Below, piece after piece: positions 1-2,016 of a stretch of 64,000 nt of DNA. Numbering within the stretch: the stretch's first letter is position 1; every line of letters starts with the position of its first letter. The translations under genes were made by a program, and so were the position numbers. This stretch comes from Alphaproteobacteria bacterium (GTDB taxonomy: Bacteria > Pseudomonadota > Alphaproteobacteria > Kiloniellales > DSM-21159), in the NCBI GenBank assembly GCA_030433005.1, contig JAUILQ010000003.1, positions 81,626 to 145,625 of the forward strand. The letters are read 5' to 3'. The notes beneath the pieces were generated by a model. That model had not been told where the DNA came from and ran no database searches. It worked only from the letters and a program-made list of their open reading frames with translations.

Positions 1-426
1 CCAGCCGGTCATCGTGCCGCCGCCGGCGCGGTTGATCGAGGCCTCGCCGATGTAGCCGACGACGATCATGACCACGTCGGCGGTCACCAGCTTGGCCATC
101 AGGCCGCGGTCGAACTGCTTGCCGCCCAGCAGGATCGGGAAGACCGCCAGGATCAGCGGCGTGGTGATCAGCCAGTCGATGTAGCGGAAGTCGGTCGGGA
201 AGCCGGCGAGGTCGGCGGCCTGGCCGCTGGTGCCGACCATGTCCTTCATGACGAAGTAGTTGATCGCGGCGACCAGGGCGACCATCGCCGACAGGCTGGC
301 GACCGGGCTGTAGGCCGGCGTCAGATTGTTGCGCTCCATGAGGAAGTAGAGCACGCCGGCGGCCATGCCGGCGAAGGCGGCGGCGAAGCTGTACTGCGTC
401 GCCAGCACGAGAAGGTCGTAGGACAT
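1..426 (-). CDS. Microbial rhodopsin, probably sensory (5' part only)
   Basis: This is the first 142 codons of a seven-helix retinal protein; the rest lies left of the window. Translating the minus strand from the ATG at 426 gives helix A (about 5-28), helix B (41-60), helix C (80-99) and helix D (112-128). Helix C carries Arg81-Tyr82-Ile83-Asp84-Trp85, then Thr88, Thr89 and Pro90, the signature around the Schiff-base counterion (Asp84). Helix D carries Gly-Tyr-Ile-Gly-Glu, as in proteorhodopsins. The position equivalent to the proton donor (Asp84+11) is Val95, so a pump is unlikely. The tuning position (Asp84+8) is Ile92, which suggests green rather than blue absorption. GGAG at 436-439 is the likely RBS. 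The gene follows a transducer gene on the same strand after 66 bases, which supports a sensory role. The retinal-binding lysine of helix G cannot be seen here. Family membership is firm; function is inferred. Confidence 0.9.
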   Translation of the reverse strand, partial: MSYDLLVLATQYSFAAAFAGMAAGVLYFLMERNNLTPAYSPVASLSAMVALVAAINYFVMKDMVGTSGQAADLAGFPTDFRYIDWLITTPLILAVFPILLGGKQFDRGLMAKLVTADVVMIVVGYIGEASINRAGGGTMTGW

Positions 427-453
427 CACTCGAAGCTCCGATTGCTGAGGCTC

Positions 454-465
454 GGGGGGGGGGGG
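454..465. repeat. Homopolymer of 12 G between transducer and rhodopsin genes
   Basis: An uninterrupted run of 12 G (C12 on the coding strand) lies in the 66-base gap between the transducer stop and the rhodopsin start, about 15 bases upstream of the rhodopsin RBS. Such tracts can change length by slippage and can also be misread in sequencing. It is outside both coding regions, so a length change would alter spacing or mRNA structure rather than reading frame. Confidence 0.9.
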
Positions 466-492
466 AAGAAAAGCGAAGCTGCCGGCCGACGG

Positions 493-2016
493 TCAGGCGG
501 CCCTGCGCGCCGTCCCGGCGCCGGGTCCGGGATCGGCCGCGACGACCCCGCCGTCTTGCGCCAGGGCCTCGCGCTCGATCTTCGAGACGACCCGGCGGAT
601 CTGCTCGTCGACCACCTCGGCGATCTGCCGGCTGATCCGGTCGATCAGCTCGGCGCCCTCGCCGGAGTAGGTCTCGACCTGGCCGGCGAACTCTCCGACC
701 GTGCGGGAGGCCTCGATGACCTGGGCGAAGCGGCTCGACAGCTCGCCGGTCTCGCGCGCGCTCTCGGCTGCGCGGGCCTGGATGTCGCCGGCGGAGCCGG
801 CCTGCTCGGCGACCGAGCCGCGGACCTCCTCGGTCGAGCGCGAGATTTCCTGGACCACGTCGATCAGGGTCTCGATCGCCCCCGCGACCTCGGAGACCGA
901 GGCCTGGATGGCGCCGACCTGGCCGGTGATCTGTTCGGTCGCCTTGGTCGTCTGGTTGGCCAGCGACTTGACCTCGGAGGCGACGACGGCGAAGCCCTTG
1001 CCGGCCTCGCCGGCGCGCGCCGCCTCGATGGTCGCATTGAGCGCCAGCAGGTTGGTCTGGTCGGCGATGCGGTGGATCAGGTCGACGACGCGCGCGATTT
1101 CCTCGCTGGAGTCGGTCAGAGTCGTGATCTTGCCGCTGATTTCGGCAGCCTGGCGCGTCGCGCCCTCGACGGTCTCGATCGAGCGGGACACGCGCTCGGC
1201 GAGGTCGCGGTTGGTCTCGCCGAAGCTGCCGATCGATTCGACGACCTCGCCGCTTCTGGCCGCGGTCTGTCGCGCCGAGTCGTCGACCGCGGTGACCGAG
1301 TCGCCGAGCGAGCCGGCGATCTCGCTCATGGTCCGCGACATGGCGCCGAAGTTGCCGCGCAGGCCGTCCATGCTCTGGCCGGCCTCGGCCACGACGCTCT
1401 GAACCTGCTGCGAAACCTCGTCGAGCTGCTGGCGCAGCGCGCGCTGGCGCTCGGCCCTGAGCCGCAGCTCCTCGCCCTTCAGGCGCTCGACCTCCTGCGT
1501 CTTGGCGCGGAAGGTCTCGAGCGCCCGCGTCATGCGGGCCAGCTCGTCGACCTTCGAGTCGGGCAGCTCGACCTCGAGATTGCCGCCGGCCAGGCCAACC
1601 GTGGCGCGCGAGAGGCGGGCCAGGGGCGTGGCGAGGCTGCCGCCCAGCCACTGCGCCATGGCGATTCCGAGGAGCACGCAGACCGCGCCGAAGGCCAGGG
1701 CCTGGGTGCGCGCGCTGCCGATCTCATCGATCAGGGCCGCCGCCGGGGCGCCGGCGACAATCGAGTCCTCGAGGCCGGAGAAGGAGGCATTCGCCGAGAC
1801 CGCGGCGAACAGCGCCAGCCCGATCACCGCGACGAAGCCGGCATAGACCCGGGCGCGCACGCCGACCCCGGAGACCGCGACCGCGTCGGACGGAGCCGCC
1901 GGCGGCGTGCCGAGCGGCCGGCGAGCGCCACCCTCGGTCGCCGTCACCAGCGGCTCGGGCCCGTGAAAGCTCTTCGGAAAGCCGCGCCGCGCAACGAGAT
2001 CCAGGCTCATCACCAT
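493..2016 (-). CDS. Methyl-accepting transducer, likely rhodopsin partner
   Basis: This 507-residue receptor would relay a signal to CheA/CheW. After about 52 mostly polar residues come TM1 (about 55-77), a very short periplasmic loop (about 78-105), TM2 (about 106-126) and a HAMP domain (about 127-175). A long coiled-coil signalling domain follows, with the conserved hairpin tip at about 317-345 (Asp-Gln-Thr-Asn-Leu-Leu-Ala-Leu-Asn-Ala-Thr). The loop is too small to form a ligand-binding domain. That is the architecture of Htr transducers, which sense through a partner membrane protein. The gene lies immediately upstream of the rhodopsin gene on the same strand, in the htr-sop order. No C-terminal CheR-tethering pentapeptide is visible. 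A second ATG at 2010 has better spacing from the GGGG at 2017-2020 and may be the true start. Chemoreceptor identity is secure; the pairing with the rhodopsin is inferred. Confidence 0.93.
   Translation of the reverse strand: MVMSLDLVARRGFPKSFHGPEPLVTATEGGARRPLGTPPAAPSDAVAVSGVGVRARVYAGFVAVIGLALFAAVSANASFSGLEDSIVAGAPAAALIDEIGSARTQALAFGAVCVLLGIAMAQWLGGSLATPLARLSRATVGLAGGNLEVELPDSKVDELARMTRALETFRAKTQEVERLKGEELRLRAERQRALRQQLDEVSQQVQSVVAEAGQSMDGLRGNFGAMSRTMSEIAGSLGDSVTAVDDSARQTAARSGEVVESIGSFGETNRDLAERVSRSIETVEGATRQAAEISGKITTLTDSSEEIARVVDLIHRIADQTNLLALNATIEAARAGEAGKGFAVVASEVKSLANQTTKATEQITGQVGAIQASVSEVAGAIETLIDVVQEISRSTEEVRGSVAEQAGSAGDIQARAAESARETGELSSRFAQVIEASRTVGEFAGQVETYSGEGAELIDRISRQIAEVVDEQIRRVVSKIEREALAQDGGVVAADPGPGAGTARRAA

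Follow-up and report, generated by a model that had tools for sequence, protein, structure and literature searches.

A rhodopsin-chemoreceptor gene pair in purple Alphaproteobacteria as a candidate light sensor of pump-type ancestry

Gene order at the locus

The window, that is, the whole stretch of 64,000 nucleotides analysed here, corresponds to bases 81626-145625 of contig C6 in an alphaproteobacterial genome of 5.3 Mb and 116 contigs (completeness 94.29, contamination 0.63). At its left end, according to the open reading frames and the Pfam and NCBIfam models, an MCP-type transducer gene lies on the minus strand, followed by 66 bases, a rhodopsin gene and blh. The rhodopsin gene crosses the edge of the window and was completed with the DNA taken leftward of it on the same contig (L002). 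The features located were the following, in window coordinates unless L002 is given:

493-2016, minus strand: transducer (MCP) gene, the first ATG giving 507 aa; HAMP and MCPsignal both exceed the Pfam cut-offs
1792-1848, minus strand: predicted TM1 of the transducer, residues 57-75 in the 507-aa numbering (hydropathy)
1645-1701, minus strand: predicted TM2, residues 106-124 (hydropathy)
1495-1650, minus strand: HAMP, residues 123-174 (PF00672, 30.7 bits, cut-off 25)
700-1179, minus strand: MCP signalling domain, residues 280-439 (PF00015, E 3.6e-31)
427-492, minus strand: spacer of 66 bases from the transducer stop to the rhodopsin ATG, read from the sequence
454-465, minus strand: 12 consecutive C within the spacer, shortly before the rhodopsin start
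436-439, minus strand: GGAG, ribosome-binding-like, in the spacer upstream of the rhodopsin ATG
1-426, minus strand: first 142 codons of the rhodopsin gene from the ATG, continuing past the window edge to L002 17294 (contig C6 81293)
172-186, minus strand: RYIDW, with Arg82 and the counterion Asp85
142-144, minus strand: Val96 at the proton-donor position (pairwise alignments and tally)
43-57, minus strand: GYIGE, helix D (sequence and alignment)
L002 16235-17257, minus strand: blh, Brp/Blh beta-carotene dioxygenase (PF15461, TIGR03753)

The original prediction of a rhodopsin placed 66 bases after the transducer on the same strand was borne out, as the transducer stop ends at 493 and the rhodopsin ATG occupies 426-424. 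The blh gene begins 36 bases past the rhodopsin end, with 141.7 bits for TIGR03753 (cut-off 95.25), and is followed by a gene for an AFG1-type ATPase. A scan for promoters and terminators over 3.9 kb, which is a weak test, found none, including sigma-70-like promoters. Furthermore, the run of 12 C could vary in length and so alter translation, or could be an assembly matter. About 1.4 kb past blh, a PAS-HWE histidine kinase (L002 13849-14856, minus strand) was found, which did not reach the cut-off set for the blue-light LOV kinase model.

The transducer

The likelier start of the transducer is codon 3 at position 2010, giving 505 aa, since the initial methionine of its relatives aligns there and the homologue list gives the same length. 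The two-TM chemoreceptor proposed originally was recovered as two predicted helices, while the loop of about 28 residues was revised to 30 residues, measured between the two hydrophobic 19-mers. This gap was small in all 14 aligned transducers (30-44 residues, with 39-44 in the 13 relatives), and the same hydropathy measure gave 18 residues for an HtrII fragment. Moreover, the best PDB match of the stretch from the TM helices to HAMP was the HtrII chain 2f95_B, although weak (E 0.0015). With two predicted TM helices, a small loop, a HAMP domain and an MCP domain, the protein has the architecture expected of an Htr-type transducer. Ahead of TM1 lie about 55 residues, presumably cytoplasmic, with the consensus MSLxLxxRxGxPxxFxGPPPLP and ending in SGVGVLPRVY. 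The consensus is recognizable in the window's transducer and in 12 relatives, differing from row to row, and it is missing from the relative P0052. This stretch could form part of a rhodopsin-binding surface.

The rhodopsin

The complete rhodopsin gene (L002 17294-18055, minus strand) encodes 253 aa from a GTG or 252 from the likelier ATG; residue numbers count from the GTG and here coincide with those of bacteriorhodopsin. The protein matched PF01036 (E 2e-44), being the sole match to this family in the genome, and no match was found in PHROGs or NCBIfam. The helix-G lysine predicted to bind retinal, which the original prediction had asked to be sought by extending the contig leftward, was found in the motif D220-V-I-N-K224. 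Residues R82, D85, T89, D220 and the Schiff-base K224 were invariant in 32 of 32 rows of an alignment (A1) comprising 15 rows of clade A (the window and P0002-P0015), 7 of clade B, 3 of Exiguobacterium type and 7 others. In addition, the predicted model of P0001, a protein 98% identical to the window's rhodopsin, had seven helices of TM length with a mean pLDDT of 94.7, and its top Foldseek match was 4hyj (TM 0.87/0.93, 52% identity). The PF01036 fold with seven predicted helices, the Schiff-base lysine and the Asp counterion identify the product, as judged from sequence and model, as a type-1 microbial rhodopsin.

The rhodopsin had been described as proteorhodopsin-like after the motifs RYIDW and GYIGE. 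Both were located where they had been reported, while the closest solved structure turned out to be not proteorhodopsin (2l6x, 93.5 bits) but the Exiguobacterium sibiricum rhodopsin, ESR (4hyj, 266.6 bits; next 98.4 bits). At donor position 96, the clade A rows had Val (7), Ile (4) or Met (4), so that all 15 were devoid of a carboxylate or lysine, and Thr, Val or Ala appeared in 7 of 7 clade B rows. Lysine was found there in the three Exiguobacterium-type rows and in six of the seven others. Position 57, in turn, was His in the Exiguobacterium rows and Asn in every row of clades A and B. The carboxylate or lysine at position 96 characteristic of pumps of the ESR/proteorhodopsin type is accordingly absent from the predicted protein. 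Without the donor, the photocycle would be expected to run slowly, a trait of sensory rhodopsins. Site 93, which tunes colour in proteorhodopsin, is Ile in the window's rhodopsin, and this residue suggests that the protein absorbs green light.

Placement of the rhodopsin in the tree

The tree comprised 66 rows, Salinibacter SRI being absent from them; of the 50 listed rhodopsin matches, all but P0001, P0015, P0019 and P0049 were used, as were 12 of 32 rhodopsin loci from other genomes. The window and Rhodovibrio fell in the 15-row clade A (100/94), sister to the 9-row clade B (100/98). Both clades fell into the part of the tree that contains ESR, proteorhodopsin and xanthorhodopsin, the window grouping near the Exiguobacterium proton-pump rhodopsin, while SRII (1gu8), SRI (9wxr) and one haloarchaeal BR were separated by a 100/100 branch. 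Membership of the SRI/SRII branch was rejected by the AU test, both for clade A with SRI and SRII (p 4.4e-35) and for clade A with SRII (p 2.2e-5). The placement of the rhodopsin outside this branch is therefore strongly indicated, if not absolutely, as the tree contains long branches flagged by the tool. On this placement, the pairing with a transducer would have an origin independent of that in haloarchaea.

Clade B consisted of P0016, P0018, P0023, P0024, P0026, P0029, P0030, P0031 and P0032, with the donor missing in all seven that were tallied, and its rhodopsins are possibly further sensors.

Recurrence of the pair

Contigs were scanned with six short patterns from one protein, which reach close relatives only. 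A single locus was obtained, in Rhodovibrio sodomensis DSM 9895 (L004), with the following genes:

4437-5951: transducer
6001-6750: rhodopsin
from 6747, overlapping the rhodopsin: lycopene-cyclase-family gene

That the pairing is more than chance is supported by this second organism, in which transducer and rhodopsin occur in an identical order. The transducers of the two organisms were 51% identical over 494 columns and the rhodopsins 72%. The lycopene-cyclase-family gene scored 182.8 bits in Pfam (cut-off 23.4) and fell under the NCBIfam CrtY cut-off. The third gene differs between the two loci (blh vs. lycopene-cyclase family), yet both kinds serve the supply of retinal. Directly past this gene, the minus strand of L004 (8090-10881) carries ORFs named by eye as transposase-like, and the cluster may have moved.

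Direct synteny of transducer and rhodopsin was observed in these two organisms, the neighbourhoods having been read for 2 of the 15 clade A rhodopsins and 2 of the 13 transducer matches. A third pair is suggested by rhodopsin P0005 and transducer P0063, which come from the same source, the longest contig having 4,866 bases for both. An adjacent and co-directional rhodopsin gene, conserved as for an Htr-type transducer, is thereby seen in two organisms and possibly present in a third. Each protein search scored about 8,000 candidates, and the relatives listed are lower bounds. The first 290 residues of the transducer gave at least 13 matches, including the window's own and that of Rhodovibrio, and residues 40-240 gave at least two, a low number best explained by MCP words filling up the list of candidates.

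Among 61 genomes of the order, the rhodopsin query matched four, three of them with 28-33% identity, and the transducer N-terminus matched 17. For the latter, the window's genome covered model positions 1-306 (1.7e-163), while 28 other places started at position 80 or later with at most 78.3 bits. The full-length N-terminus and the window-type rhodopsin were both found in the window's genome only, so that transducer and rhodopsin were either present together or absent together in this set of 61 genomes. Homologues of the transducer lacking a rhodopsin, which would have spoken against the original prediction, were therefore not encountered among these genomes in full-length form. At the level of the class, 34 of 385 genomes had an A1-type rhodopsin at 1e-30, with 2.6e-123 for the window's genome and 2.2e-56 for the next, and a scan of 398 genomes of the phylum gave one match at 1e-50, in the window's own genome.

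A scan of the class for MCPs with P0052, in which at most four candidates were scored per genome, gave matches in 2 of 385 genomes. One of these matches (G384) was considered as a relative of the transducer and discarded, being 33% identical and starting at residue 52 in a genome outside the 34 bearing an A1-type rhodopsin; owing to this weak match and the lack of the rhodopsin, it was read as an ordinary MCP. Another genome, of the same genus as the window's (G013), was without the pair and had a different rhodopsin beside a flotillin-domain protein (L042 6624-9721), like the flotillin-associated rhodopsins.

Retinal, chemotaxis and photosynthesis genes in the genome

The genes for retinal synthesis called for by the original prediction were present. 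Besides blh next to the rhodopsin, contig C37 has crtY, a crtI-family desaturase and a phytoene synthase-type gene in a row (crtY-crtI-crtB), the last of which was under the CrtB model cut-off (413.2 vs. 480). With blh adjacent and these crt genes in the genome, binding of retinal by the rhodopsin is likely. The chemotaxis and flagellar genes that had likewise been anticipated were also found. In particular, the genome has a single H-kinase_dim (CheA-type) match, clustered with cheW, cheB and cheR, together with FliG, a MotA/ExbB-type protein and an FHIPEP-family protein as flagellar genes, and 25 MCPsignal matches. Moreover, contig C34 (L067 7571-13950, minus strand) carries pufM, pufL, an antenna gene (PF00556), bchZ and bchY, the puf and bch genes being over their NCBIfam cut-offs. 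This gene content marks the organism as an anoxygenic (purple) bacteriochlorophyll phototroph. Rhodovibrio is a purple phototroph too.

Proposed function and alternative readings

The light-guided motility originally proposed is supported by the lysine, the blh/crt genes, the che and flagellar genes and the recurrence of the pair. The rhodopsin probably binds retinal and senses light, with the transducer relaying the signal to CheA and on to the flagellar motor. Beyond the gene content, we infer the following steps. Blh would cleave beta-carotene to retinal, which would be bound at Lys224 of the rhodopsin, and the rhodopsin would then absorb light, likely green. Lacking a cytoplasmic proton donor, it would turn over slowly, and a long-lived late state would act as the signal. 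The rhodopsin would sit beside TM1 and TM2 of the transducer dimer, where its helix movement could act on the transducer helices and pass on through HAMP to the MCP tip, changing CheA activity; phospho-CheY would, in turn, alter flagellar switching.

Several observations run counter to this proposal. The contact with the transducer made by Tyr199 of SRII was looked for in an alignment against the SRII sequence and is not kept, Val218 being at the equivalent position counted from the lysine; the interface between rhodopsin and transducer would thus be its own. The loop between the TM helices is also longer than that of HtrII by the same hydropathy measure (30-44 vs. 18). Furthermore, the nearest rhodopsin with an established function is a pump, and photosynthetic electron flow alone could steer swimming. 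The restriction of direct synteny to two organisms and the lack of a sigma-70-like promoter in the scan, itself a weak test, also count against it.

If the rhodopsin served energy conservation as a proton pump of the Exiguobacterium/xanthorhodopsin kind, it would provide dual phototrophy together with bacteriochlorophyll, and the chemoreceptor gene would be a mere neighbour. ESR, its nearest characterized relative, is indeed such a pump, and one report interprets alphaproteobacterial operons of rhodopsin, crtY and blh together with photosynthesis genes as dual phototrophy (PMC13043013). Nevertheless, we regard this as unlikely, given that the donor is absent from all 15 clade A rows, the equivalent of His57 is Asn, and the transducer is the neighbour common to the two organisms while the gene past the rhodopsin differs. 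A pump with a chance MCP neighbour was discarded as the leading reading owing to the recurrent pair and the missing donor.

A light sensor with a non-flagellar output, through CheA-linked control of, for example, biofilm or pigment synthesis, appears slightly less probable again. The 25 MCPsignal matches leave room for it, as the output of a single MCP is not readable from sequence; against it, the single CheA match, with cheW, cheB and cheR beside it, and the flagellar genes make motility the plain route. Archaeal sensory rhodopsins are able to pump when their transducer is absent, so the rhodopsin might combine a sensor with a weak pump, moving protons without the transducer while the signal dominates with it. 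This is very improbable, the donor site of clade A being free of carboxylate and lysine.

The best reading of the sequences is that an MCP-CheA pathway gained its light sensor by recruiting a pump-type rhodopsin, independently of haloarchaea. The broader proposal, which we hold with somewhat less confidence than the signalling route itself but still favour, is that bacteria evolved rhodopsin phototaxis independently: in purple Alphaproteobacteria, a pump-type rhodopsin would have lost its donor and been captured by a chemoreceptor, becoming a dedicated eye for green light that guides the swimming of a bacteriochlorophyll phototroph.

If true, the design of rhodopsin-transducer signalling arose more than once, given the different branch and its occurrence in two bacteria, and the pair offers a fresh test of the residues that turn a pump into a sensor. 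Phototrophs would also gain a means of sensing light that does not rely on photosynthetic electron flow. As strain DSM 9895 of Rhodovibrio sodomensis has been deposited, the idea is testable. Among the titles and abstract openings listed, a literature search whose coverage excluded most subscription papers and all bioRxiv preprints showed no such pair in proteobacteria. Motility control by sensory rhodopsins was known only in archaea according to a 2017 review (PMC5812497).

Comparison with known systems

Within bacteria, the accessible part of one report places the rhodopsin of Salinibacter ruber (SrSRI) in a probable operon with SrHtrI, a two-TM transducer of 518 residues (PMC3274258). The locus resembles this system in having a bacterial rhodopsin beside a two-TM transducer gene; however, the Salinibacter rhodopsin is described there as SRI-like, while that of the window groups with ESR, proteorhodopsin and xanthorhodopsin in a tree from which SrSRI was absent. 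Anabaena sensory rhodopsin is likewise encoded together with its transducer in a single operon of a phototroph, but this transducer is given as a soluble protein of 14 kDa in the text available (PMC3267196), unlike the membrane MCP of the window. Another purple bacterium, Halorhodospira halophila, is described in the accessible text as showing negative phototaxis via photoactive yellow protein (PMC3746430).

Regarding the co-occurrence with photosynthesis, Sphingomonas AAP5 also has a rhodopsin alongside bacteriochlorophyll genes, although of the xanthorhodopsin type and with a histidine kinase in the operon, no MCP transducer being mentioned in the accessible part of the source (PMC7762795). 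Similarly, marine alphaproteobacterial MAGs combine xanthorhodopsin and bacteriochlorophyll genes with crtY and blh, as far as the available text goes (PMC13043013).

The haloarchaeal SRII-HtrII and SRI-HtrI systems have in common with the window a two-TM HAMP/MCP transducer with a small loop paired with a rhodopsin, but they differ in the rhodopsin branch, and the window's transducer carries ahead of TM1 a stretch of about 55 residues that follows a consensus of its own. The residue before the lysine also differs, being Asn223 in the window's rhodopsin, as in ESR and proteorhodopsin, and Thr204 in SRII. The accessible part of one source describes the contact of Tyr199 of N. pharaonis SRII with its transducer, and reports that in haloarchaea even lysine-less opsins adjoin MCP transducers (PMC4915679).

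ESR is the closest solved structure, about half of its residues being identical to those of the window's rhodopsin, and Glu occupies in proteorhodopsin the donor position held by Val96 in the window. To our knowledge, ESR has no link to a transducer. Unlike the window's rhodopsin, with Val96 and Asn57, ESR has His57 and is a proton pump with a Lys donor, as described in the available text (PMC8387761).
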